This document shows, piece by piece, positions 1 through 11,310 of a stretch of 11,352 nucleotides of DNA. The number at the start of each line of letters is the position of its first letter. Positions within the stretch are counted from its first letter, which is position 1. A model generated the notes under the pieces. The model ran no database searches, was not told where the DNA came from, and saw only the letters and a program-made list of their open reading frames with translations. Source of the stretch: an uncultured Gemmatimonadota bacterium (lineage in GTDB: Bacteria; Gemmatimonadota; Gemmatimonadetes; Gemmatimonadales; Gemmatimonadaceae); contig CAMPKM010000056.1 of the NCBI GenBank assembly GCA_946887155.1, forward strand, positions 1 through 11,352, in the 5' to 3' direction. The position numbers and the translations under genes were made by a program.

Positions 1-3000
1 AGTTTGATCTGGCGCACCGATCGGCATTCCGGCCGGAACAGGTGCGGGCTCGCCACCACGATCACCGCGCACCGGGCGCGCGACGTTGCCACGTTGAGGC
101 GATTGGGACTGTAGAGGAACTCCATGCCCCGCGGCGCGTCTTCGGGCCGCGACGTCGCCATGGAATAGATGACGACCGCCTTCTCCTGGCCCTGGAACTT
201 GTCGACCGTGCCGACGTGAGCGCCCGCCGGCAGCGCTTCGGCCAGCTGGTTCACCTGTGAGTTGTACGGAGCGACGATCAGGATGTCGTCGATGGTCATT
301 TGCCTGGCATGGCCTTTGGCATCGCGCCATTGCGGGCCGGGACTCGTCAGGCGCTCGACCAGGTCGACCACGGCCGCAACCTCTTCAGGTGAATGATTCC
401 GGTTGCCTTCGTGTTCGACTTCGATCATCCGCAGCCCGGAGCCGTTGAATTCGCCGGCGTTGACCAGGGCCTGCTGCTCCAGGCCGGGAATCGATGTCAG
501 CTTGCGTTCGTAATAGAGCTCGGACGTGAACAGGCAGATCGATGGCGCCAGGCGCCACGTCGCCGGGAGAAAGATTCCGCGGTCGGCGGCAATCGTTTGA
601 TGCTCTCCCAGCAGGTGTTCCAAGGCCGAAACGCCCACGCCGTCCGGGTGCGTACCCTGCGTGGGTTGATCGAGCTGCTGCGGGTCGCCTAACAACACGA
701 CGGCGCTCGCCGCCTGCGACACAGCGGCGACGTTGGCCAGTGACATCTGCCCGGCTTCGTCGACCACGAGGACGTCCACCGCGCCAGCATATTCCTCGCG
801 CGCCCACAGCCATGGCGTTCCGCCCAACACGTTGAACTCTTTCGCAAGAATCCCCTCAATGGGTGCTTCGTTGCCACAGAGCGACGTAACGCCGCCGGTG
901 CTTTCAGGCTTGTCGTCCTTGTGCGCCACGCTGATGGCGACGCCCCTTTCTGCGGCCGTCTGCACGCATCGGTCGAGCAAGTTGCGAATGACCTTGTGCC
1001 CGCTCGCGGTGACCCCGACACGTTTCCCCTGCGCCACGAGCGCACACACCATCTCGGCGCCGGTGAACGTCTTGCCCGAGCCGGGTGGGCCCTGGATGGC
1101 GAGGACGGATCGATCCAGCACGCCGGCGATACGGACGGCGAATCCCGTGGCTATTTCGCCGGGACGCGGCTCAAATCGCTCACCAGGCAACAGCCGCGGC
1201 GCCTTTGCCAGCAACAGATCCGCGGCGGCAGAGGTCACCGCATCGACACTCCCCGCCCCGGCGACCTGCTCGCCCAGCCGCATCAGCGACTCTTCGATTT
1301 CTTCCGCCCCGATAAAGTCAAAAGCGAACAACGCGTCCTGGTGCACGCCGTCTCGTTTCCTGGCCTTCTCCAGATCCAGCGTGCGCGATGACCGATCGTG
1401 CGCGACCACTTTTCCGAAATCCTTTCCATCACCCGGAGTCCGTAGCTTGTCACCTCGATTGAAGTCGACTTCCTGCCGCGGATATCGATAGCGATCGACT
1501 ATCGGCCCCTTCGGCTTTCCGTTCCTGTGAAAGCCCGTGCCGCTGGAAACCTGCTCGATGAACTCGAGGCCATAGACCGCGCTCCGTTCGTCCATCAGGT
1601 CCTCGATAGGCAGCTCGCGCAGACGGAAGTACTCCCACCACGTCGCCTTGTCTTCCCGCCGGTGAAAATCCAGCAGGTATGCCAGGACCCATCGCGCCTG
1701 CTGCTCCGGACTCCGGTCCTCGTCAGGCACCCCCGACAACAACCGGGCGCGCAGGTCCTGCACACGCCTCGCCTTGTCGTTGACCTCTTCGGACGATTCG
1801 TCTGGCGTCTGCACCGGTCGCGGAAAGGATGCGCCTTTCGACACGGCATCAGCCCTGACCTGTTCCAGCCAATCGCGCAGCCGCAACGTCGAGACGCAGT
1901 CATCGCGGTTGTATCCCTCGATCGTCGCGCGATCCTCCTCAGGCACATCCTCGGCTCGTCGAGTCTGAAGCGCGTATTCCATCCGCCGCAACGCATGCGA
2001 GGCATCGGGAAGATCCACGTCGCGCGCAAAGCCATAACACGGCTCGAGCTGCTTGATGGAGTAACTCTCGACACCGATCCACATCGCCTGCCTGACGACG
2101 GCGTACAGGTCGATGAATCGGCCGCCGCGCAGCAGCCGGTCCAGTTCCGCTTCGCGCACGGCGTGCCGGCCCATCAGCCGCTTGAACGCGGAGGGCTCGT
2201 ACGGCGCGTAGTGATAGATGTGCATGTCCGGGAAGCGCTCGAGCCGCGCCATGATGAAGTCCATCACCGACTCGAAGGCTTCGCGCTCCTCGCGCATCGT
2301 GATGGCCCACCACGCGCGATAGTCAGGCTCCCCGGCGTCGCCCACGGTCGCGATGCCGAACAGGTACTCCCGGCCCACGTCATCGGCAAAGAGATCACCT
2401 TCGAGATCGAGGAAGACATCGCCGGGGGACGGTTCCGGCAACCGCGAGAGACCATACGGCTCCGGTTCCACACCTTCCTTTGTCACCGGCATCGGGCGCA
2501 ACGCGTGCAACGGCACGTCGCGACCGCGGGACTGGAGCTGCACGACGGCCTGTTCACGTGCCCGTTCGTACGACTCGCGCGATCCGCGTCCGGGATTGAA
2601 CGGCAGCGGCACCATCATCGCGGCCAGCTTCGCCAGCGAATCGAAGTTGTTGCGGGCGAGCTCGCGCCGGTGCAGCCGGCCAAGTCCAGCGACGAGCGAC
2701 AGGTGGTCGTCCGCATGCCGTTTCTCGTCGCATCGGCGCCACCAGGCGCACACGCCACAATGTTCGACGGGCTCGGGATAGTGCGCACTCGACAGCGCGG
2801 CATGACCCATCGCCACGGCAGACATCAGTTCCGCCTGCATGAAACGCAAATACGCCGAGTAATCGTCGGTGCGATGCGTATGCTGGACGGTGGAGCCGCG
2901 CTCGCCAGGCACCACGACGTGAAATCGCTCGGGCGTTGCGCCAAGGATCTCGCTCAGCATCGACGTATAGACGCCGAGCTGCATGATGGTGCCGGCCCGG

Positions 3001-3416
3001 GTCTCGCGAGCCAGCTTGGTGTCGGCGACTTCGTACGACCAGTTGCCGAGCGCGCTCGACGAGTCGGTACGGATCAGGATGTCGGTGTACCCGAACCACT
3101 GATCGTGGCGCAGGGCGCCTTGCACGATGACTTCGGCGCCGTGCGTGATCGCTTCGAGCGTATCGGTAACGGCGTCTTCGTTCTTGCGCGTGATCTCGAC
3201 GACCTCGCGTCCCGCCTGTCGTAACGAATTTACGAAGGCCTTTTCGTGATCCCGCCCGCGCTGCGCGATAAGGTCCACGAGCGGATCGTCACGCTTCCGT
3301 GGTTTTTCGTAAATCCTGTCGACGGCCCCCAGGTTGAGCGCAAAGAGGTGCCGGCAGTCGAGGAAGTGCGCGACGTCGGTGGCCGAGATGGTCAGGCCGG
3401 CTTCGGTGCGGAACAT
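1..3416 (-). CDS. TM0106-type RecB-like nuclease / RNase H-like exonuclease / SF1 helicase fusion (3' end outside window)
   Basis: Probable DNA-processing enzyme combining nuclease and helicase activity. The window holds 1138 codons in one uninterrupted frame; the last visible residues (FRPECR...RQIK) match the usual end of this family, so only about 20 residues should be missing. Domains in order: (1) residues 1-250, Cas4/RecB-like PD-(D/E)XK nuclease with D112 (GYTDILI), D132-T-K134 and a QLGVY motif near 147; C21, C220, C223 and C229 copy the one-plus-three cysteine pattern of Fe-S cluster nucleases. (2) residues about 330-515, RNase H-like/DEDD exonuclease with D337-L-E339, HYAPYE and NRDDC (D505, D506). 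(3) residues about 740-1138, Dna2/Nam7-like SF1 helicase with Walker A GPPGSGKT (776-783), Walker B VVDEAG (D886, E887), GDPQQ, VDKFQGQE and NVATSRA. The start is ATG 3416, nine bases after the preceding WYL gene; no strong Shine-Dalgarno is present, so translation is probably coupled. Domain functions come from family knowledge; the biological role (repair or defence) is inferred. Confidence 0.9.
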   Translation of the reverse strand, partial: MFRTEAGLTISATDVAHFLDCRHLFALNLGAVDRIYEKPRKRDDPLVDLIAQRGRDHEKAFVNSLRQAGREVVEITRKNEDAVTDTLEAITHGAEVIVQGALRHDQWFGYTDILIRTDSSSALGNWSYEVADTKLARETRAGTIMQLGVYTSMLSEILGATPERFHVVVPGERGSTVQHTHRTDDYSAYLRFMQAELMSAVAMGHAALSSAHYPEPVEHCGVCAWWRRCDEKRHADDHLSLVAGLGRLHRRELARNNFDSLAKLAAMMVPLPFNPGRGSRESYERAREQAVVQLQSRGRDVPLHALRPMPVTKEGVEPEPYGLSRLPEPSPGDVFLDLEGDLFADDVGREYLFGIATVGDAGEPDYRAWWAITMREEREAFESVMDFIMARLERFPDMHIYHYAPYEPSAFKRLMGRHAVREAELDRLLRGGRFIDLYAVVRQAMWIGVESYSIKQLEPCYGFARDVDLPDASHALRRMEYALQTRRAEDVPEEDRATIEGYNRDDCVSTLRLRDWLEQVRADAVSKGASFPRPVQTPDESSEEVNDKARRVQDLRARLLSGVPDEDRSPEQQARWVLAYLLDFHRREDKATWWEYFRLRELPIEDLMDERSAVYGLEFIEQVSSGTGFHRNGKPKGPIVDRYRYPRQEVDFNRGDKLRTPGDGKDFGKVVAHDRSSRTLDLEKARKRDGVHQDALFAFDFIGAEEIEESLMRLGEQVAGAGSVDAVTSAAADLLLAKAPRLLPGERFEPRPGEIATGFAVRIAGVLDRSVLAIQGPPGSGKTFTGAEMVCALVAQGKRVGVTASGHKVIRNLLDRCVQTAAERGVAISVAHKDDKPESTGGVTSLCGNEAPIEGILAKEFNVLGGTPWLWAREEYAGAVDVLVVDEAGQMSLANVAAVSQAASAVVLLGDPQQLDQPTQGTHPDGVGVSALEHLLGEHQTIAADRGIFLPATWRLAPSICLFTSELYYERKLTSIPGLEQQALVNAGEFNGSGLRMIEVEHEGNRNHSPEEVAAVVDLVERLTSPGPQWRDAKGHARQMTIDDILIVAPYNSQVNQLAEALPAGAHVGTVDKFQGQEKAVVIYSMATSRPEDAPRGMEFLYSPNRLNVATSRARCAVIVVASPHLFRPECRSVRQIK

Positions 3417-3425
3417 GGCGGCTCG

Positions 3426-4328
3426 TCAGGCGACCGCGCGGCGCAACGCGTCGCGATAAGCGGGCGGGTCCACGATCATCGCGTCGGTTCCGAATTCCAG
3501 CACGCGGCGCGTGAGCCACTCGGTGCTGGAAGCAGGAAAGGGCACGTTCACCGAACCATCGGGAAGCACTTCATGTTCGGTGAAATATTCGGTCGCCCAC
3601 GGTGCGGCACCGGCGCGGAAGCGGACCGTGACGCGGTCGACCTGCTCGCGGACCCTGAAGGTGTCGCTGCCGGATGCGATCGGTTCAAAATCGTGCCGCA
3701 TGACGAATGCCACGTCCGCGGGGCGCACGGCTGATACGCGGTCGAGCCGGAAGTGCCGCCAGGCGTCTACGTCGGGCGTGAACGCCACGATGTAGGTACG
3801 CATGCCCATCTCCACCATCTGGTACGGATGGATGACGCGCGTGCGGATCGCGGCATCAGTTTCGCCCGCGTAATCGATTTCCAGCGCCTTGTGCTCGTGG
3901 ATCGCGTCGCGGATGACATCGGCGGGAGTGTCCGGCTGCTCTGGTTGCGATGCAGGATGGGTCCTTTCTCCGGACCAGTGTGCGCCGAGTCGCCGGGCGA
4001 GCGCGCCGCCTTCGCTGTCCATGGCCAATGCGACCTGCACGGCGAGTTGTTCTTCCGGCGACAGCCGAACCGGGCGGCGGAACGGGCCACGGCTCGAGAT
4101 GGCCACGCGGTCTCCCTGCTGCCAGACCTGCAACGACAGGAGCCAATCGGCGTCCGCGTCTTCGCCTAACACCGTGAGTGCCCGGATGTCGGCTGCGATG
4201 TCCGCCGCCGAGACATCATGTTCAGCCGCGAGATCGTCCAGCGCCACCGACTCGTCAGGCGCCTGGTCGCGGCGGCTGAGCTCGGCAACGAGCGACACGA
4301 TTCGGGCAAACTGTTCGGTCGCGCGCAT
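3426..4328 (-). CDS. WYL-domain transcriptional regulator, PafC-like
   Basis: Second of two tandem WYL regulators, 300 aa from ATG 4328. An N-terminal helical, HTH-like segment (about 5-55, RIVSLVAEL...LDDLAAEHDVSAADI) is followed by a linker (SPEEQLAVQVALAM). Then comes a WYL domain with the core GMRTYIVAF (about 175-183) and FRLDRV (about 193-198), and a C-terminal WCX-type tail (EFGTDAMIVDPPAYRDALRRA). The layout resembles PafC, the weak-HTH partner of the PafBC heterodimer; WYL domains sense nucleic acid or other ligands. The GTG at 4331 is an alternative start. I prefer ATG 4328 because GAGG sits seven bases upstream, and it overlaps the previous stop as TGATG. The TGA stop lies inside a copy of the GCCTGACGAG word. 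Assignment as specifically PafC rather than a generic WYL regulator is inferred from the tandem order. Confidence 0.88.
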   Translation of the reverse strand: MRATEQFARIVSLVAELSRRDQAPDESVALDDLAAEHDVSAADIAADIRALTVLGEDADADWLLSLQVWQQGDRVAISSRGPFRRPVRLSPEEQLAVQVALAMDSEGGALARRLGAHWSGERTHPASQPEQPDTPADVIRDAIHEHKALEIDYAGETDAAIRTRVIHPYQMVEMGMRTYIVAFTPDVDAWRHFRLDRVSAVRPADVAFVMRHDFEPIASGSDTFRVREQVDRVTVRFRAGAAPWATEYFTEHEVLPDGSVNVPFPASSTEWLTRRVLEFGTDAMIVDPPAYRDALRRAVA

Positions 4329-5380
4329 CACACCGCCTCGGCGTACAACGCGGCTACGTCGGCGCGGAGCGCGTCCAAAGTTTCGCGCAGCAACGGTGGA
4401 TCAATGATGTTCGCCTTCCTGCCGAACGACAGGATCCAGCGGAGGAAGGCGTCTTCGTCACGAACCTCGAACTCGATGACGGTATCGCGTGGTTCCTCGC
4501 TGATGATCCGGCCGAGGCCGCGATTGACCACCCAGCGCGACCCGGGAAACGAGAAGGCCACCTGCACCTTGCTGATGGGTCCCGACCCGAACTCCCACGG
4601 CGACAGGTCGACGAACGTTCTGATGTCGAACTCGTCAGGCACGTCGAACCGCGCGGTGGGCCCGGTCAACCGCTTCACATCACGCATGCGGTCGACTCGA
4701 AACATCCGCGCGTCGTCGCGGTCGCGCGCCCGGGCCACGCAGTACCAGCGTCCCCATTGGAACATCAGGCCCCACGGCTCCAGTTCGCGCACCGACTCGG
4801 CGCGCCGCGACATGGTGTAGTAGCGGCAGGAGATCGCCTGTCGCTGGACCACCGCATCCTGCAGCACCGCCAATGCCTGACGAGCGTGTTCGGGTACGGG
4901 CCAGCCGAGGATGCGGTCGGACGTATCGGAGGTGAAGGGGAGATCGAACGAGAGCTTGCGGCGGGCACTGGCCGCGGCCGCGGCGAGGGGAGTTGCATCG
5001 AGCGCGGCAAGCGAACGCGTGGCGCGGTCGAGGGTCTCGAGTTCCGGCGTCGAGAGCAACAGGCGATCGAGACCCTGGTAGGAATGGTCCGGCGCCGGCG
5101 AGTCGATGAGCTCGAGGTACGGGAGGTAAGCGTTGCGCGGGCGGAGCCGGTACCCCGCGGCTGGTTCATCGCCGGCCGCTCCAGGCATCGGGACGGTTTC
5201 GATGTCGATGCCTGACGCGCGGAGCTCGTCCTTGTCGCGCTCGAACTTGCGGCGCGCCGACTCCGGTTCTCCGTCGTAGCCGCCGACCTTCGCAAAGATC
5301 TGCTCGCGTGTGACCGGGTAGCGCCGGTCGAGCAGGAAGGCGACCAGGTCGAGCCAGCGGGTTGGTTTGGGGGCGGGCAC
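4328..5380 (-). CDS. HTH-WYL transcriptional regulator, PafB-like
   Basis: First gene of the minus-strand unit, 350 aa. Residues 6-60 form a winged-HTH-like region (WLDLVAFLLDRRYPVTREQIF, then SARRKFERDKDELRASGI), typical of the DNA-binding end of WYL regulators such as PafB. The WYL domain is near 180-240, with core WGRWYCVAR (209-217) and FRVDRM (227-232). The C-terminal WCX-like end carries ILSFGRKANIIDPPLL. The start is GTG 5380, the only plausible start ahead of the HTH; its Shine-Dalgarno is weak. The protein overlaps the downstream WYL gene by one to four bases, which supports co-translation of two interacting subunits. PafBC in actinobacteria activates the LexA-independent DNA damage response; that this pair controls the adjoining nuclease/helicase gene is inference from the operon. 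Confidence 0.9.
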   Translation of the reverse strand: MPAPKPTRWLDLVAFLLDRRYPVTREQIFAKVGGYDGEPESARRKFERDKDELRASGIDIETVPMPGAAGDEPAAGYRLRPRNAYLPYLELIDSPAPDHSYQGLDRLLLSTPELETLDRATRSLAALDATPLAAAAASARRKLSFDLPFTSDTSDRILGWPVPEHARQALAVLQDAVVQRQAISCRYYTMSRRAESVRELEPWGLMFQWGRWYCVARARDRDDARMFRVDRMRDVKRLTGPTARFDVPDEFDIRTFVDLSPWEFGSGPISKVQVAFSFPGSRWVVNRGLGRIISEEPRDTVIEFEVRDEDAFLRWILSFGRKANIIDPPLLRETLDALRADVAALYAEAV

Positions 5381-5438
5381 GGTGAGCTAACGGGCGGCGT
5401 TGGTCATGGATGGTAAGATGGCCAGGGGGTGTGACATC

Positions 5439-5497
5439 AGGCCAAACTGAACCATAACCCTGCTTGCTACTTGAGGTTAGCGAACGACCATTGGCCT
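5439..5497. promoter_or_regulatory. Inverted repeat upstream of the WYL operon
   Basis: AGGCCAA at 5439-5445 and TTGGCCT at 5491-5497 form a perfect 7 bp inverted repeat separated by 45 bases. It lies in the 129 bp gap between the M23 gene end (5510) and the WYL operon start (5380), where the operon promoter should lie. I could not identify convincing -35/-10 boxes. It could be an operator for the WYL pair or chance. Confidence 0.3.
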
Positions 5498-5509
5498 TAC
5501 CGGGCGCCG

Positions 5510-6070
5510 TCAGCTCCTCCCGGGCGGCGCCGCCACGTAAGTCCTACCTGCCACCAGTGAGTCAGACGACGCGTTCGAAAATCCGATCCTGATGCTCTGG
5601 CACCCCCAACGGTAGCACCCGCGTGTGACGTCGAAGTGCAGGTGAGGGCCGGCGCTGGCGCCTGTGCTCCCGCTCCGGGCGATGGTGTCGCCAGCGGCCA
5701 CCTTCTCGCCGACGTCGACCAGTGCGCCGTTGATGGTCAGGTGATAGTACCGCGCAAACGTCGAGTCGTCGTGCGAGACAATGACGAAGTTCTCTTCGCC
5801 TGCCTTACGAGTAAAATCGGCGAAGCGCTCCTCGACGGTAACGACGACACCCGGCTTCGCCGCCGTCACCGGACTTCCAACGGGCATCACGAAGTCCCAT
5901 GCCCATTCGGCGTGTCCTGTGTGGCCATACGGTCCATTCGGCCCCTGGATCAGTCGTGCCGAGTCACCGGCCGGGAAGGGGAGGAGATAGGTGTGTTCAG
6001 TTGACTGGGGAGTTCGGGCAGCAATCGAAACAACGATCGCGACGCCCAGGATTACCACTTTCGGCCACAT
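5510..6070 (-). CDS. Exported M23 family metallopeptidase (LytM-like), small
   Basis: Probable zinc endopeptidase acting on peptidoglycan cross-bridges in the periplasm, 186 aa. An N-terminal hydrophobic segment (residues 4-17, KVVILGVAIVVSIA) acts as signal peptide or anchor. The M23 domain has its zinc ligands in order: H53 and D59 (HAEWAWDF), catalytic H110 (RYYHL), and H143/H145 (GPHLHFDV). The spacing H-x5-D is that of the family branch with an aromatic insert. C152 and C157 could form a disulfide. ATG 6070 was chosen over the longer open frame to 6202 because GGAGAG lies about seven bases upstream and the signal peptide begins right there. It is separated by 129 bp from the downstream WYL operon, so it is probably transcribed separately. 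Whether it cleaves or only binds peptidoglycan is not visible, but the metal site is intact. Confidence 0.88.
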   Translation of the reverse strand: MWPKVVILGVAIVVSIAARTPQSTEHTYLLPFPAGDSARLIQGPNGPYGHTGHAEWAWDFVMPVGSPVTAAKPGVVVTVEERFADFTRKAGEENFVIVSHDDSTFARYYHLTINGALVDVGEKVAAGDTIARSGSTGASAGPHLHFDVTRGCYRWGCQSIRIGFSNASSDSLVAGRTYVAAPPGRS

Positions 6071-6236
6071 CACGATCTCTCCGGGGAGGGACCCTGAGAC
6101 AGTCGAGCCCGTGGGGAAGGTTGCGTGAGGAGGACGTGACGAGGCTTTTCGCCGCATTGAGGGGTACGTGGATGGTGCGTGGCCGACTGCTGCGGCCGCC
6201 ATTCATCTGTCCCTTTTCGATCGAGAGGATTACACC

Positions 6237-6395
6237 ATGCCAACGGTCTGGTTAGGCATCATCCTGGTCATCGCGTGGGCCGTGCTCTGGCTCGGGCTCA
6301 AGCTTGCCACGGGTCTCATCCATCTGCTGGTGGTCGTCGGCCTGGCGCTCGTCGTGTGGGGGCTGATCAAGCGGGGCGCGCGCGCGATTACCTGA
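6237..6395 (+). CDS. lmo0937/DUF5670-type small membrane protein
   Basis: A 52-residue protein made almost entirely of two hydrophobic helices (about 4-20 and 26-43) around a short GLKLATGLIH turn, ending in a basic tail (KRGARA). This length and pattern (hydrophobic helix, G-x-x-x-G-x-I-H-L-L, hydrophobic helix, basic end) is that of the lmo0937/DUF5670 family of small membrane proteins, whose function is unknown and which are often stress-induced. ATG 6237 is preferred to the upstream in-frame ATG 6168 because GAGAGG ends eight bases ahead of it and the preceding 23 residues look unlike a protein. It is divergent from the small M23 gene across 166 bp. Confidence 0.8.
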   Translation: MPTVWLGIILVIAWAVLWLGLKLATGLIHLLVVVGLALVVWGLIKRGARAIT

Positions 6396-6539
6396 TGAAG
6401 CGAGTTGAGTGAATTCAATAGGTGGCGCGTTGCCAGGATGATGGCCGTCGGCAGCCTATCGGCTCAATGCCTCTGGTCCCTGACCGGGCGCCGTAGGGTA
6501 ACCACGAGCTCGGTCCTGAATTCCCCGCAAGTCAGGTGA

Positions 6540-7907
6540 TTACCCAATCCCCGCCTCGCGGAGTTTTCGCGTTATGCGGTCCTCGACCCACTGCGCACTC
6601 CACCAGTCGATCGGCGTAACCGCTCGCCCGCCAAGCAGCATGGTGAAATGCAGGTGGTCACCGCCGGCGAGGCCGGTCGTTCCGCTACGTCCGAGCTCCT
6701 GGCTCATCTGCACGCTGTCGCCGCGCTGCACACCGATCGACGACAGGTGCGCGTAGAGTGATTGCAGCCCCATGCCGTGATCGAGAATCACGCAGTTTCC
6801 GTAAATACCGAGGAACCCGGCGTGAACCACTGTGCCGCTGTTTGCGGCCAGCACCGGCGCCGCTGATGTCGAGGCAAGGTCGAAACCGAGATGCGTCTGA
6901 AAATCGACCGAGTCGCCCTTGTACACGTAGGTGCGCCGGTCCGCGAATCCGGCTTCGACGGCTGAATTGAGGAGCTGCTTGAACGGACCTCGCCAGAGAA
7001 CGCGCGGTGAAGTCTCCTGTGCGAGGGCGGCAATGCGGGCGTCGTTCTCCCGGCGAAGGTCGCGATTGATTCGCAGGTAAGACGCCAGCAGGTCACCCGG
7101 ATTCTCGACCTTGAAGTCGGGCGTATTCTGGAGGATCGCGGGCACGACCTTGCCAAGAAACGCATCGTCGATGCCGATCCGGCTCCGGCGAAACGTCTTC
7201 GGGAAAGCTCGGTGCTCGAGTTGGGCGGTGGCTTCGTTGCCCGCCTCGTCGCGCGCGAACACGCTGATCGGCGTATTCACGTCCTGGTCCCACGAGAGGG
7301 CGAAGAACGCGACGTGCAGGCTCGACTCCGAACTCGTCTGGCCGGCTCCCGAGGCCGGGAAACCGCGGAACTCGCGATCGCCGACGCGGACGCCAGACGG
7401 CACGTCAGGCGGTGTGGCCCGGTAGACGACGACCTCCGAGCCGCCGTGATTGATGTAGTGTTGCGTCGACAGGACCGCGACGCGTGGCGGCGTGAGCCTG
7501 ACGGTCAGGGGGCGCGTCAGCGTCGTCTTCGTCTGCTGCAATCCCATGAACGTCGGTTGTCCGGCGGTCACCTGGATGACGGCCGGACCTTCGACGAGTT
7601 CAGGATGATGCTGCTTGCCTATCGAGCGTGTGAACCGGAACTGGTTTTCACCGGCTGGGGTTATCGCTGCTGAACTGTCTTCTTCCAGTGTGAATACCGG
7701 AATCCGGTTTTCACCCTGCGTCAGGACGACATCGAGGGTGGTAAGCCGGCCCTTCGGGGCATCGATGAGCAGGACGAGTTCACCGCTCTGGCCGATGGCC
7801 GAGGTGGGCCATTCCATGGTGATGGCGGGTCCGGTACCGCGTCCGGCGATGAACCAGGCGATGGCGAATCCCACGCCCAGGATGAGAAGGGCAAGCAGTT
7901 TGCGCAT
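6540..7907 (-). CDS. Membrane-anchored M23 family metallopeptidase with N-terminal beta-rich region
   Basis: Probable peptidoglycan endopeptidase, 455 aa. A signal anchor (residues 3-20, KLLALLILGVGFAIAWFI) is followed by an Ig-like, beta-rich region (about 30-235; a segment near 150 reads VAVLSTQHYINHGGSEVVVY), a helical linker (about 240-320), and the M23 catalytic domain at 325-455. Zinc and catalytic residues are complete: H339 and D343 (HLGFD), H387 (LYAHL), H418 and H420 (DHLHF). The family, as I recall it from Acidobacteriota and other environmental bacteria, has this same long N-terminal part. Start ATG 7907 places the basic MRK directly before the anchor; no clear Shine-Dalgarno precedes it. 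Near residues 100-107 the sequence carries HHPELVEG, whose DNA matches a dispersed-repeat consensus. It converges on the small membrane gene across 144 bp, in which I see no convincing terminator. Confidence 0.9.
   Translation of the reverse strand: MRKLLALLILGVGFAIAWFIAGRGTGPAITMEWPTSAIGQSGELVLLIDAPKGRLTTLDVVLTQGENRIPVFTLEEDSSAAITPAGENQFRFTRSIGKQHHPELVEGPAVIQVTAGQPTFMGLQQTKTTLTRPLTVRLTPPRVAVLSTQHYINHGGSEVVVYRATPPDVPSGVRVGDREFRGFPASGAGQTSSESSLHVAFFALSWDQDVNTPISVFARDEAGNEATAQLEHRAFPKTFRRSRIGIDDAFLGKVVPAILQNTPDFKVENPGDLLASYLRINRDLRRENDARIAALAQETSPRVLWRGPFKQLLNSAVEAGFADRRTYVYKGDSVDFQTHLGFDLASTSAAPVLAANSGTVVHAGFLGIYGNCVILDHGMGLQSLYAHLSSIGVQRGDSVQMSQELGRSGTTGLAGGDHLHFTMLLGGRAVTPIDWWSAQWVEDRITRKLREAGIG
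7588..7610 (-). repeat. HPELVEG-type dispersed repeat core within coding sequence
   Basis: The + strand reads CCTTCGACGAGTTCAGGATG followed by ATG. On the coding strand this gives HHPELVEG inside the M23 gene. This 20-mer is, from memory, the core of a short dispersed repeat common in several high-GC genomes, which yields HPELVEG when translated. Homologues of this peptidase naturally carry a P-E-L-x-x-G motif here, so the match may be partly native. Confidence 0.4.
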
Positions 7908-7929
7908 GTCGGAACTTTAACCGCGGTGT

Positions 7930-8053
7930 CGCTCGCTTGGAGGTTCCGCCGGGCTCGATCCGATACGCTCGCTCGGAGGTTCCGCCGCCCTCGCTGTGCG
8001 CTCGGTGATTGCTTGAGCGACGGGCCGCGCACGGCTCGGTCGGCGGAACCTCC
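7930..8053. repeat. Intergenic direct/inverted repeat cluster (GGAGGTTCCGCCG)
   Basis: A 22 bp unit, CGCTCGCT(T/C) plus GGAGGTTCCGCCG, occurs at 7930-7951 and 7966-7987 with one mismatch. The 13 bp core returns inverted as CGGCGGAACCTCC at 8041-8053. A related TCGCTCGCTCC lies near 8095-8105. The copies sit wholly in the spacer between the M23 gene and the gene at 8207. The second and third copies could pair as a 13 bp stem around a 53-base loop. This resembles REP-type extragenic elements. Open frames across it give only low-complexity RRRFRR/AEPPSER text and are not genes. Confidence 0.75.
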
Positions 8054-8154
8054 GTCGTTCGCTGGCCGATTCCTGCAACAAATCGGAGCCTCTGTCGCTC
8101 GCTCCTGATCTTTCACGGGGGGGCATCGAGGTCGCTCGACGAGGTGACGCGGCG

Positions 8155-8189
8155 GTGACGGCTTGGCGCAAGCATTGCGCGGACGTCAC
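8155..8189. promoter_or_regulatory. Composite hairpin just upstream of the 8207 gene
   Basis: GTGACG (8155-8160) pairs with CGTCAC (8184-8189). Nested inside, GCGCAA (8166-8171) pairs with TTGCGC (8175-8180) around a three-base loop. The structure ends four bases before the GGAGGG Shine-Dalgarno of the next gene, so it could be an operator or a translation-modulating leader hairpin. There is no T-tract, so it is not a terminator. Confidence 0.45.
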
Positions 8190-8206
8190 TCACGGGAGGG
8201 TAGAGG

Positions 8207-8842
8207 ATGGGACTCACATTTGGTTACGAGCTTCGGCTGCCGGCATCGCTCTCCGGAGACGAAGTGGATGCGATTCTGGAGAAGCTGAAGCGACACGCGG
8301 AACGCTCACGGTTTCGCCAGGTTTCATCGACCTACGCCGGTGTGGTCGACTTTCTGCCTGACGAGTGGCGGCAGGTCTTCAACGTCCTTGCCGAAGTGAA
8401 TGCAGAAGTCTTGGGCAACGACGAGCGACCCTATGCCGCCGATCTCGCCACCGCGCGGGGATTTCTCGCGTCGCCAGGGAAAGGGGCTGAAACGACCTCG
8501 TTCGGCTTCATGCTCCGAACGTTCGACGATGACGGGAGCCGGGAATGGTTCTGGCAGGGGTGGTGCAAGACACAGTATGCCTCCAATCATGGCGACGAGC
8601 ACTTTCTACGCTGTCATCTTCGACTGGTCGAGATGATGGACTTTGCGATCCAGTCCGGCGTCGAGGTGACGGTGTGGGACGAGGGGCAGTATTGGGAAAC
8701 CCGCGATCGCGACGTCCTGCTGGCGGAACTGGACAAGATGAACCGACTGATGGCCCGCGTGGCCGGACGGCTGCATGACGCGAAGCATCAAGTCGAGTCG
8801 CCGATCTTCGAGCACCCCGACTGGGAGCGCCTCGAGGGGTAG
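8207..8842 (+). CDS. Conserved uncharacterised protein with WFWxGWCKTQYASN motif
   Basis: A 211-residue soluble protein with no signal peptide or membrane segment. The start ATG 8207 follows GGAGGG (8193-8198) at good spacing. Recognisable blocks are SFGFMLRTFDDDG (98-110), EWFWQGWCKTQYASN (113-127), FLRCHLRLVEMMDFA (133-147) and VTVWDEGQYWETRD (154-167), then a helical end (MNRLMARVAGRLHDA). I recall a similar block order (aromatic-rich, CKTQYASN, FLRCHL, DEGxYWE) in unannotated proteins of cyanobacteria and other bacteria, but I know of no assigned function. The density of conserved W, C, H, D and E residues hints at a binding or catalytic site, which is inference. It stands alone, with a hairpin and repeat cluster upstream. 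Confidence 0.85.
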   Translation: MGLTFGYELRLPASLSGDEVDAILEKLKRHAERSRFRQVSSTYAGVVDFLPDEWRQVFNVLAEVNAEVLGNDERPYAADLATARGFLASPGKGAETTSFGFMLRTFDDDGSREWFWQGWCKTQYASNHGDEHFLRCHLRLVEMMDFAIQSGVEVTVWDEGQYWETRDRDVLLAELDKMNRLMARVAGRLHDAKHQVESPIFEHPDWERLEG

Positions 8843-9099
8843 CCGCCGACCACTCTAGGATTGAACGCCACACTGGTCACAGCGGATACTCGACTCCGGA
8901 AATACGTTCCCCTGCGCACGATTTGGGACTGATGTTTCCCTTTCAGTGCAGGATCTCACGTCGGTTGCGCACGAGTTCCTCGTGCATGGCGTCAGCACGT
9001 GTCCGACCGGATGGCCATGGGACCGCGCCGTTGAGCAACGATTCCTTGGGGAGGTCCGCGAGCGCAGCGAAGAAGCCGGAGCGCGTTCAGGCGCCGAAA
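8843..9099. other. Intergenic stretch with a possible gene remnant
   Basis: This 257 bp lies between convergent genes. No terminator with a T-tract is visible. On the minus strand an open stretch (8943-9086) reads FFAALADLPKESLLNGAVPW, later DAMHEELVRNRREILH, then stops; its composition is protein-like, but it lacks a start codon and Shine-Dalgarno. A 7 bp stem with a three-base loop (8969-8985, GCACGAG/CTCGTGC) lies inside it. It may be a decayed gene end or nothing. Confidence 0.3.
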
Positions 9100-9546
9100 T
9101 CAGTTCGAGCCGAGCAGGTCGATGAAGCGTTGAATGAAAGACTTTCCTGGCGGAACGGGGCGCTTCTTCGGGCCGATGACGCGAACGGCGACGGCGTTGC
9201 CCTTGCGTTGGGTTCCGGTGCCGAGGAAGGCCGCCGCGACTTTAGCACCGGCGCTTGGCTCATCGACGCGCGGCAGCAGGACGCCATTGCCACCGAGTTC
9301 GCCGGCTTTCCGCCGCATTGCCTCGAGCATCTCGGACTGATTGGTCCACTCCCCAGATCCGGTGGCTTCGATGATGGCGACGCGGACGTAGTCGAGTGTA
9401 TCGAGCTCCGTCTGGTCGGTGAAGATGCGCACCGAGTCCGGGTGCACCCGTGCATAACGCGTTGCCGAAGGGTCGAGCAATGTCGCGTGTGTGGTGATGC
9501 AGCCAGCGAGCACAATACACAGCAATCCCAAGCCGATCGTTCGCAT
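9100..9546 (-). CDS. Small lipoprotein, RcsF/DUF4156-like style
   Basis: A 148-residue lipoprotein. The signal sequence MRTIGLGLLCIVLAGC ends in a clear lipobox LAGC with the lipidated cysteine at 16, so it should be anchored in the inner or outer membrane. The mature part has SVRIFTDQTELDTLDYVRVAIIEATG (about 38-63), then a helix ending KAGELGGNGVLLPRV, a pattern shared by small lipoproteins of the RcsF/DUF4156 kind (a V-x-I-F strand, then an A-x-E-x-G-G/A-N-x-V turn). It ends in a basic stretch (GPKKRPVPPGKSFIQRFIDLL). ATG 9546 is preceded by GGAGG at five bases. It is divergent from the lipoprotein at 9692. The family assignment is by pattern and is not firm; no function can be given. Confidence 0.82.
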   Translation of the reverse strand: MRTIGLGLLCIVLAGCITTHATLLDPSATRYARVHPDSVRIFTDQTELDTLDYVRVAIIEATGSGEWTNQSEMLEAMRRKAGELGGNGVLLPRVDEPSAGAKVAAAFLGTGTQRKGNAVAVRVIGPKKRPVPPGKSFIQRFIDLLGSN

Positions 9547-9582
9547 GCAAGCCTCCGTGCGGTGTGCTGAACGATGAGGTCA

Positions 9583-9621
9583 GGGTGTGACACCGTCTAT
9601 GGCGGCTTTGATGTCACACCC
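9583..9621. repeat. 10 bp inverted repeat between divergent lipoprotein genes
   Basis: GGGTGTGACA at 9583-9592 and TGTCACACCC at 9612-9621 form a perfect inverted repeat with a 19-base loop, midway between the divergent starts at 9546 and 9692. The right arm, extended to 14 bases (TGATGTCACACCCC, 9609-9622), recurs in reverse complement at 5426-5439 in the spacer before the WYL operon. It may be an operator for the divergent pair or a copy of a dispersed extragenic palindrome. Confidence 0.55.
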
Positions 9622-9691
9622 CTGCTGCACGGTACTGGCGCCCGCTTCCAGGCATCTTCACCTTCTGACCCGTCCAACACAGGAGCGTCTC

Positions 9692-10432
9692 ATGTGGCAC
9701 GTCCGCTGGGCTTTTTCTCTCGCAGTCACCATCTCATTCGGCTGCGCCGACAGCGCGACGGAGCCGCGAAGTGTCCTGGACGCTGGATCGAGTGCCGCCA
9801 CCAGCAAGGTCGATGCTTTCCAGACGACCGCTGGCGCTCAGGCGAAGGTGTATTGCGACGGCACGTCATGCGTCGCCGCGGCCTTCGAGTTCAAGGATTA
9901 CCGGTCGGACCTGGAGGGGCGATACACGATTCTCTCAGCTTACTTCCAGAATCTTCAGGGGACGTACCCAAGCAATGGGCCGACAACGCCTGTATCGCTG
10001 AACTGGTTCTTCTTCCAGTTTTTCGACCCGAACGTGGGCGACGACTGGGTCGACGCCGCGTTGGACAACGAAGCACTTTCGGCGCTGGGAAACGTGGTCG
10101 CTGGAGACCATAACGTGTGGAGTAATGATTCACCCGCCGAAGGTGTGAACTACGATTCGTTCACGAACTTCAGCTATGGGATAGTCGGATGCGACGGCCC
10201 CCTGCCGGAGTTCCCACTCGCGTTCTTCGCGTTCAACACGTGTCCTGCGAGCGGGCTCGATGGGTGGGTCCGGATTGACTTCAAACTGAGACATCTTGGC
10301 GCCGATCCGTCTCACGCGCCCGTTCGATTCCATGACTTCCGATTTTCATTCGGGGAACTGGGCGGCGGCTTCTGCAGCATCGGTGGCAAAGAGCCGGGGA
10401 CGTGCGATGAAATTCCCTACAACAGGTTATGA
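9692..10432 (+). CDS. Secreted cysteine-containing lipoprotein of unknown function
   Basis: A 246-residue exported protein. Start ATG 9692 has AGGAG six bases upstream and begins a signal peptide (MWHVRWAFSLAVTISFGC); the first cysteine, C18, is followed by ADSATEP, typical of a lipoprotein linker although the lipobox SFGC is not canonical. The open frame reaches back to 9587, but that extension lacks signal character. The mature part is rich in aromatic residues and small amino acids (LNWFFFQFFDP, FTNFSYGIVG, RFHDFRFSFGELGGG) and has paired cysteines (CDGTSC, GCDGPLPEF...NTC, GFCSIGGKEPGTC) likely to form disulfides. The look is that of a beta-rich extracellular protein; I do not recognise a family. 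It is divergent from the small lipoprotein and has no partner downstream. Confidence 0.82.
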   Translation: MWHVRWAFSLAVTISFGCADSATEPRSVLDAGSSAATSKVDAFQTTAGAQAKVYCDGTSCVAAAFEFKDYRSDLEGRYTILSAYFQNLQGTYPSNGPTTPVSLNWFFFQFFDPNVGDDWVDAALDNEALSALGNVVAGDHNVWSNDSPAEGVNYDSFTNFSYGIVGCDGPLPEFPLAFFAFNTCPASGLDGWVRIDFKLRHLGADPSHAPVRFHDFRFSFGELGGGFCSIGGKEPGTCDEIPYNRL

Positions 10433-10536
10433 GGGCTGACGCGGACCGAATGGTCTGGGGCCGGGCCTCGCCAATGTCCACCCGGCACGGCGACGCCCGG
10501 CGCCACAGGAAACCTCAAGTCTATCTGCGAAAGATA

Positions 10537-10570
10537 CCATGTCTACTTGATAGTTGACATGGCAACATGT
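10537..10570. promoter_or_regulatory. Operator-like ACATG repeats and TTGACA box before the MerR-like gene
   Basis: CCATGTC (10537-10543) and GACATGG (10556-10562) form a perfect 7 bp inverted repeat with a 12-base spacer. ACATG (10557-10561) and CATGT (10566-10570) form a second repeat around GCAA, so the second arm is shared. A consensus -35 box TTGACA lies at 10554-10559 inside this region, but no good -10 follows at 17-20 bases. The overlap of dyads with a promoter element is typical of autoregulated MerR-type genes. Confidence 0.5.
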
Positions 10571-10581
10571 AGCTTCGGGAC

Positions 10582-11310
10582 ATGACCTCCGAAGCGCGAT
10601 ATAACCTCGACCAACTGGCCGACCTCGCCGACGTACCGGCGCGACAGATCCGCGAGCTGATCCGGCATGACATCGTTCCCGCCCCGTCGTCCGGCGGGAG
10701 AGGGGCGACCTACGGGAGCGACCACCTCGACCGGTTGCGGGCGTGGAAAGTCTTGCGAGACCAGGCGCCACCGAAGACCACCAACGAACAGCTCCGGGTC
10801 GCGCTCAACCGGCTGAGCGCCCAGGGCATGCTCCGGTCGATCGCGGAAGGCAAAACGCCCGTGGTGCTCTTTGACGACGACAAGGATGACATCACCATCG
10901 AGCGGATTGCCGGCAGCTTCGCAGCCGCATCCTCCCCCACCGCTCGAATGTCACGGGGTGAGGATACTGTAAACGAGCCGGCGCTGGCGTACCTGGCCAA
11001 CCTGCCGCGGGGAAGCGCACGGGTGCGGATGTCGAACCTGACGCGCAGGCCGCAGGTCGAAGTGCCGCTCACGAGGGAAGGTTCGGCGAGGGTTCCGCTC
11101 GAGCGGTTGCGCGAGGCGCTCGACAGGTACGTAACCGATCACGCCGCCGAGGTTCGCGTGAAGCCGCCACGCACCGAAACGTGGCAGCGGGTGACCGTCA
11201 GCGGTGATCTCGAGATCTCCGCGCGTGGGCCGCTCATGCCTGACGAGATCGAGTTGCTGGAAACCATTGGCCAGCTGCTGCAGCAGGCCATCTATAGAAA
11301 GGAGCGTTGA
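10582..11310 (+). CDS. MerR-like HTH transcriptional regulator
   Basis: A 242-residue protein. Residues 6-58 (YNLDQLADLADVPARQIREL, then DIVPAPSSGGRGATYGSDHLDRLRAWKVL) match the MerR-type winged HTH. The middle part is low in structure, and the C-terminal end (EVRVKPPRTETWQRVTVSGDLEISAR...ELLETIGQLLQQA) resembles the end block of MerR regulators found beside VIT/VWA-domain genes, as I recall them. No cysteine or metal-binding motif of classical MerR is visible. ATG 10582 has no clear Shine-Dalgarno, so a short or leaderless transcript is possible. The next gene begins two bases after its stop, giving a two-gene operon. Autoregulation through the ACATG repeats upstream is inferred. Confidence 0.85.
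   Translation: MTSEARYNLDQLADLADVPARQIRELIRHDIVPAPSSGGRGATYGSDHLDRLRAWKVLRDQAPPKTTNEQLRVALNRLSAQGMLRSIAEGKTPVVLFDDDKDDITIERIAGSFAAASSPTARMSRGEDTVNEPALAYLANLPRGSARVRMSNLTRRPQVEVPLTREGSARVPLERLREALDRYVTDHAAEVRVKPPRTETWQRVTVSGDLEISARGPLMPDEIELLETIGQLLQQAIYRKER

Follow-up and report, generated by a model that had tools for sequence, protein, structure and literature searches.

The DNA analyzed here is an 11,352-nucleotide stretch of contig CAMPKM010000056.1 (assembly GCA_946887155.1), from an uncultured Gemmatimonadota bacterium of the Gemmatimonadaceae, and is called the window below. A simple caller, a codon-usage script, finds ten genes in it, among them a TM0106-type nuclease-helicase gene (the name comes from plasmid matches; the domains were found), pafC-like and pafB-like WYL genes, two M23 peptidase genes and a MerR-like gene. 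Scattered through these genes is a ten-base word, GCCTGACGAG (form I), present in eight exact copies where 0.05 are expected; none of 200 shuffles reaches eight. Together with its complement it is the commonest 10-mer of the window, the GC content of which is 63.8%. The shorter GCCTGACG occurs 12 times against 0.85 expected, a count again reached in none of 200 shuffles. A first, sequence-only reading had listed the eight copies with their strands and the 12 shorter ones, with chance estimates of 0.05 and below one; all of its coordinates and counts are correct, and the shuffles returned the same chance values. Gene calling also bears out the frames it gave, five copies in a Pro-Asp-Glu frame, one in a Leu-Thr frame, one antisense and one at a gene edge.

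That reading had missed two sister forms, GCCTAACA (two copies, 0.1 expected) and GCATAACG (two copies, 0.2 expected). Taken alone, these four copies are weak evidence; for GCATAACG, synonymous shuffles yield up to two. Relatives for comparison came from scanning genome contigs with an alignment of the PafB-like protein of the window and 33 of its matches. The scan picked out three loci, L001 and L002 in the Gemmatimonadaceae genomes G001 and G002, and L003 in G003. The copies in the window are as follows.

343..352, minus strand: form I, nuclease-helicase gene, Leu-Thr frame
687..694, plus strand: sister form GCCTAACA
1719..1728, minus strand: form I, nuclease-helicase gene, Pro-Asp-Glu frame
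2090..2097, plus strand: partial word GCCTGACG
3422..3431, minus strand: form I, spanning the pafC-like gene's end and the gap ahead of the next gene
4164..4171, plus strand: sister form GCCTAACA
4251..4260, minus strand: form I, inside the pafC-like gene
4631..4640, minus strand: form I, inside the pafB-like gene; the sole copy of five alignable that is kept in L001
4875..4884, plus strand: form I, antisense, inside the pafB-like gene
5210..5217, plus strand: partial word GCCTGACG; the aligned place in L002 reads GCCTAACG
6570..6577, minus strand: sister form GCATAACG, 3' end other than AG
7403..7410, minus strand: partial word GCCTGACG
7496..7503, plus strand: partial word GCCTGACG
8356..8365, plus strand: form I, inside an unnamed gene (8207-8842)
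9452..9459, plus strand: sister form GCATAACG, 3' end other than AG
11238..11247, plus strand: form I, inside the MerR-like gene

Genome-wide counts were taken from the genomes of relatives, many of them fragmentary. Form I numbers 756 copies in G001, 318 in G002 and 1 in G003, against 22, 13 and 21 for the word read backward as a control. Among 395 genomes drawn from the phylum, 12 hold at least 115 copies and the other 383 at most 38. Within the family of G001 (179 genomes), YGCCTGACGAG reaches at least 107 copies in 17 genomes, which include all 12 form I-rich genomes of the phylum draw, and at most 23 in the other 162. A sister form, YGCCTAACG (form II), is in excess in 26 of the 179, at 154-3,557 copies and up to one per 1.3 kb; the remaining family genomes have at most 56. 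In G002, the weakest of the 26, the 154 copies compare with 43 of the reversed word. All 17 form I genomes fall within these 26, and nine carry form II only. Counts in the relatives are similar on both strands. Outside the family, six genomes of the phylum draw (G112, G044, G169, G369, G136 and G156) hold 304-595 copies of YGCCTAACG by count only, and perhaps reflect a further dialect or a system that reaches beyond the family; G040 and G187 have 139 and 122, with 172 and 35 for the reversed word.

The window word belongs to a broader motif whose core is YGCCTAACR. Form I occurs 78 times in 419 kb of G001 (2.5 expected) and 84 times in a 937-kb contig of G032 (5.6 expected), preceded by C or T in 73 of the 78 and 71 of the 84 copies. 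Most one-base changes at positions 1-8 drop the count to about expectation, leaving few mismatched copies, whereas positions 9-10 tolerate change in part. The exception among the first eight positions is G to A at position 5, and from this tolerance the sister form GCCTAACG was recognized, with 147 copies in G032 (6.1 expected), 101 in G001 (3.1 expected) and none in 420 kb of wordless G160. In each of four genomes (G083, G246, G032 and G001) GCCTAACG is the most over-represented 8-mer among those with at least 15 copies. GCATAACGA, a third form, occurs 22 times in G001, where 0.4 are expected. The 3' end depends on the form: AG is the most frequent pair following GCCTGACG (G001, 78 of 182; G032, 84 of 247) or GCATAACG (G001, 16 of 32; G032, 8 of 13), and it is not the most frequent one following GCCTAACG. 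Dialects are evident as well, since G083 and G246 accept A at position 8, G083 additionally accepts C at position 4, and in G001 and G032 G is tolerated at position 5, as is A at positions 1 or 3. The dependence of the 3' end on the form suggests that the forms are read by one binding activity with a threshold.

Five of the eight window copies share the Pro-Asp-Glu frame, and a repeated peptide or favored codon pairs could in principle account for the word. Synonymous-codon shuffles within genes, 20 per genome, refute this. In the window seven in-gene copies compare with a mean of 0.25 after shuffling; the corresponding numbers are 183 and 7.25 in G083, 53 and 2.4 in G246, 63 and 3.05 (form I) and 89 and 5.55 (form II) in G032, and 57 and 1.6 (form I) and 74 and 4.15 (form II) in G001. 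The spread over frames speaks against it too: form I occupies five frames, all of the stop-free ones, and form II prefers the one lying antisense to NCG-TTA-GGC. Non-coding DNA holds a clear excess of form II (for example, 86 of 269 copies in G083, with 21% non-coding DNA) and a slight one of form I (21 of 84 copies at 22% in G032, 21 of 78 at 19% in G001). The word excess lies in the DNA rather than in the protein, as the sequence-only reading had held; the counts in relatives lie far above expectation, copies are not confined to the Pro-Asp-Glu frame, and the probability left to a protein or codon artefact is negligible. The preferred form II frame puts a TTA leucine codon, rare at such GC content, into many genes of the same four genomes.

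The word is dispersed, over-represented and non-palindromic and sits on chromosome and plasmids alike, which is also what one would see of a Chi-like recombination signal, or of a polar segregation signal (KOPS- or AIMS-like) read by an intracellular motor. Such signals have strand polarity, and the test for it used GC skew in place of a mapped origin and terminus. G083, treated here as Gemmatirosa kalamazoonensis KBS708, was sampled over the first 2.8 Mb of its chromosome and in four 10-kb samples (460 kb in all); the two strands of its 21 samples of 20 kb bear 154 and 136 copies, and the G-rich and C-rich strands 149 and 141. The word is likewise not tied to the replication strand in G032 (127 versus 132) or G001 (95 versus 102). 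One 200-kb stretch of G246 is skewed, 41 versus 72 (p 0.005), perhaps as a result of gene orientation. In addition, the excess here amounts to 15-50 fold for a word of 7-11 bases, more than is known for Chi, and strong avoidance of short gaps would not be expected of Chi. Because polarity is missing in three of the four genomes, the Chi- or KOPS-like candidate of the sequence-only reading is disfavored, and we regard it as quite improbable.

Spacing was compared with random placement in 2000 simulations per genome. Short gaps were as rare in 0 simulations for G083, 8 for G246, 23 for G001 and 162 for G032, the last not clearly different from random. The coefficient of variation of spacing is low in G083 and G001 only (4 simulations each), against 252 for G032 and 1121 for G246, where it is not distinct from random. 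Each of the four G083 replicons, a 21-kb element included, has 12-17 copies of GCCTAACG in its first 20 kb. Even spacing, a threshold-like motif and presence on all four replicons would also suit the binding site of some intracellular protein, for instance an abundant architectural one, that selects for regularly placed sites for reasons unrelated to uptake. Such a protein is an unlikely explanation, since the fast turnover of copies, the lineage dialects and the repeated change of the trait within one family would be better suited to a drive by DNA uptake. A dispersed regulator site, another of the early candidates, is ill suited to hundreds to thousands of copies that are mostly intragenic.

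The turnover is seen in aligned relatives, where words are gained and lost without gaps (the sharing counts exclude gapped places). Between the window and L001, one of five alignable form I copies is kept and neither of two GCCTAACA copies. The GCCTGACG at window position 5210, facing GCCTAACG in L002, records a switch between forms. Proceeding from G001 to G032, two of nine form II and one of eight form I copies are shared, and in the reverse direction two of six and one of three; for G083 and G246 the shared copies are one of seven and none of seven. In a tree of rpoB, for which 21 rows were used of 30 genomes searched (G090 and G392, with short rpoB pieces, were also left out), nine worded genomes form one clade (support 100/99), and G246, also worded, falls with G160 and G171, which lack the word. 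The word trait has therefore changed at least three times among the 21 genomes.

A methylation target, or a mutational bias driven by methylation or otherwise, was weighed too. Some methylated words are over-represented in other bacteria, HIP1 being an example, and HIP1-like words are palindromic, unlike the present one. Mutation from C to T would take GCCCAACG as its likely source, yet this sequence is in excess in G083 (89 versus 19.8), and its loss in G001 (9 versus 25.5) is far too small for the approximately 98 extra copies of GCCTAACG; the numbers do not fit and this origin was rejected. The published methylome of G. kalamazoonensis lists RGATCY, ATGCAC and CCAGN7TCA as its only motifs, all m6A (PMC3974934); the word is not among them, a comparison that covers form II and m6A. 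The methylation candidate of the sequence-only reading is thus disfavored as far as the sister form in this relative is concerned, the only one whose methylome is published, and is very improbable overall.

Integrons provide a different possibility, that the copies are what is left of attC sites or places where an integrase lands. GTTAGGC, in the complement of form II, matches the attC core consensus GTTRRRY, an integron integrase scores over cut-off in 35 of 52 family genomes, and same-strand clusters occur in some genomes outside the family. Form I, with GTCAGGC, does not match the consensus. The integrase is over cut-off in 15 of the 26 worded genomes and in 20 of the 26 wordless ones, indicating no dependence on it. 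Copies of the word are single (two close pairs among 163 GCCTAAC in G032) and mostly intragenic, and the paired inverted arms of attC beside cassette genes are not seen for it. On pairing, gene location and phyletic pattern we rejected this origin as extremely improbable. As a separate observation, same-strand runs of YGCCTAACG about 0.5-1 kb apart at G141:C5, G117:C2, G257:C14 and G216:C24, where the dispersed word is absent, resemble integron cassette arrays.

Of the candidates raised by the sequence-only reading, an uptake-like word fits best. We consider the window word to be, with a probability of roughly three in four, a local form of a DNA uptake sequence, a judgment drawn from genome comparison. 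Words of the YGCCTAACR and YGCCTGACGAG types would be bound by a surface DNA receptor tied to the type IV pilus and to import through ComEA and ComEC, and DNA bearing such words would be taken up preferentially. Upon recombination the incoming DNA would spread the word by point mutation on both strands, in genes and gaps alike, such that uptake would drive the accumulation of the word. The binding activity deduced from the motif would be this uptake receptor, and the worded bacteria would be naturally transformable. A single threshold receptor could read all forms: A at position 5 would leave the 3' end nearly free, and a word with G there, or with A at position 3, would favor AG at positions 9-10.

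Two papers describe known uptake sequences as evenly spaced, without orientation bias, often located in reading frames, in non-coding excess, with few mismatched copies and scarce in newly acquired segments (PMC1939737, PMC7811141). Another describes dialects of the Neisseriaceae DNA uptake sequence (DUS) that follow lineages (PMC3630211). Copy numbers given in the first of these papers are 1,965 for DUS in N. gonorrhoeae and 1,471 for the 9-mer of the uptake signal sequence (USS) in H. influenzae (PMC1939737). The testable genomic hallmarks hold here wholly or in most of the genomes studied, those of even spacing and of scarcity in new DNA only in part, and the clearest rivals each fail a defining test. 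The likeness to DUS, which the minor pilin ComP reads, extends to a non-palindromic word of about ten bases, hundreds to thousands of copies, lineage dialects and comparable density. The word and the phylum are unrelated, though, and inverted pairs are few here (of 306 words in G083, 13 neighbor pairs lie within 120 bp, five of them inverted). Pasteurellaceae USS likewise lack orientation bias, lie for the most part in reading frames, are in excess in non-coding DNA and change by point mutation, and their even spacing and scarcity in new DNA are matched here in part. They differ in the word itself, the hosts here are GC-rich, and both the receptor and the uptake are putative here.

Scarcity in new DNA may be seen in one 20-kb stretch of G083 (L171, G083:C2:2655764-2675763), which has no word where about 14 are expected and holds the type I restriction genes HsdR, HsdS and HsdM together with a Mrr-type nuclease gene. 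Its type I enzyme would suit the methylome motif CCAGN7TCA. The machinery for import was scanned for in 52 family genomes, 26 worded and 26 wordless. PilT is over cut-off in all 52 and ComEC is present in 44 (21 worded, 23 wordless). A ComEA-like match, found in 47, lies within a few kb of a pilT in many of the genomes listed, and in G083 the ComEA-like gene adjoins pilC-pilT-pilB.

Several results weigh against an uptake sequence. The skewed stretch of G246 and the random-like spacing values of G032 and G246 given above are among them. The longest word-free gap of G032 is 19.8 kb, with about 20.1 kb predicted by chance; its gaps were for this reason rejected as acquired islands, and the evidence for word-free islands therefore rests on L171. 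The 21-kb high-copy element of G083 (L144, G083:C1), called possibly a phage (PMC3974934), is as word-rich as the chromosome. In rpoB the lack of words is slight (13 versus 18.2 expected), with 0 versus 6.3 in its flanks, and depletion in this gene was rejected as weak. Five of the 26 worded assemblies have no ComEC match, and the ComEA-like match is over the model cut-off in only one of 52 genomes. ComEC, PilT and ComEA-like genes are equally common in wordless genomes and were rejected as the genes that set worded ones apart. Lastly, ComP_DUS (PF16732) is over cut-off in none of the 52, with weaker matches in five, worded and wordless; a ComP-type receptor was rejected.

Self-specific uptake has quite probably evolved in Gemmatimonadota independently of Neisseriaceae and Pasteurellaceae, judging from the sequences compared, with its own words, a putative threshold receptor and several gains, losses or dialect switches within one family, and many genomes of the phylum would thereby be marked by frequent transformation. 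We found no literature joining uptake sequences with Gemmatimonadota or Gemmatimonas in a search that left most subscription papers and preprints outside; among the matches listed, neither the words themselves nor an uptake-sequence survey of other phyla appeared. On natural competence in Gemmatimonadota, two papers were listed. If correct, this would be a further independent case of self-recognition in another phylum, the uptake-sequence trait would be one that evolves repeatedly, and the molecular-drive explanation would become testable by comparison. The often uncultured Gemmatimonadota would be marked as naturally transformable, and the word would offer a practical tag for DNA intended to enter them.

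A search for another dialect in wordless G160 (460 kb: C1 and samples of C2 and C3) gave no clear word; dispersed repeats of 11-12 bases are present, such as GATCCGGAGCAT and TCCGCATCCCT, with about 10-20 copies in 460 kb. As to the window itself, its protein matches are mostly unlabeled, and those bearing an organism label are mainly from Gemmatimonadaceae, Gemmatimonadales or Gemmatimonadota, with one from Vicinamibacterales. No viral contig encoding a relative of the pafB-like protein was found, and an Rfam scan of the window gave no match at gathering scores. Plasmid matches amount to six records, covering only about 105-108 bp of the nuclease gene. The pafC-like and pafB-like genes (window 3426-5380) adjoin the nuclease-helicase gene, and the trio is also found together in L001.

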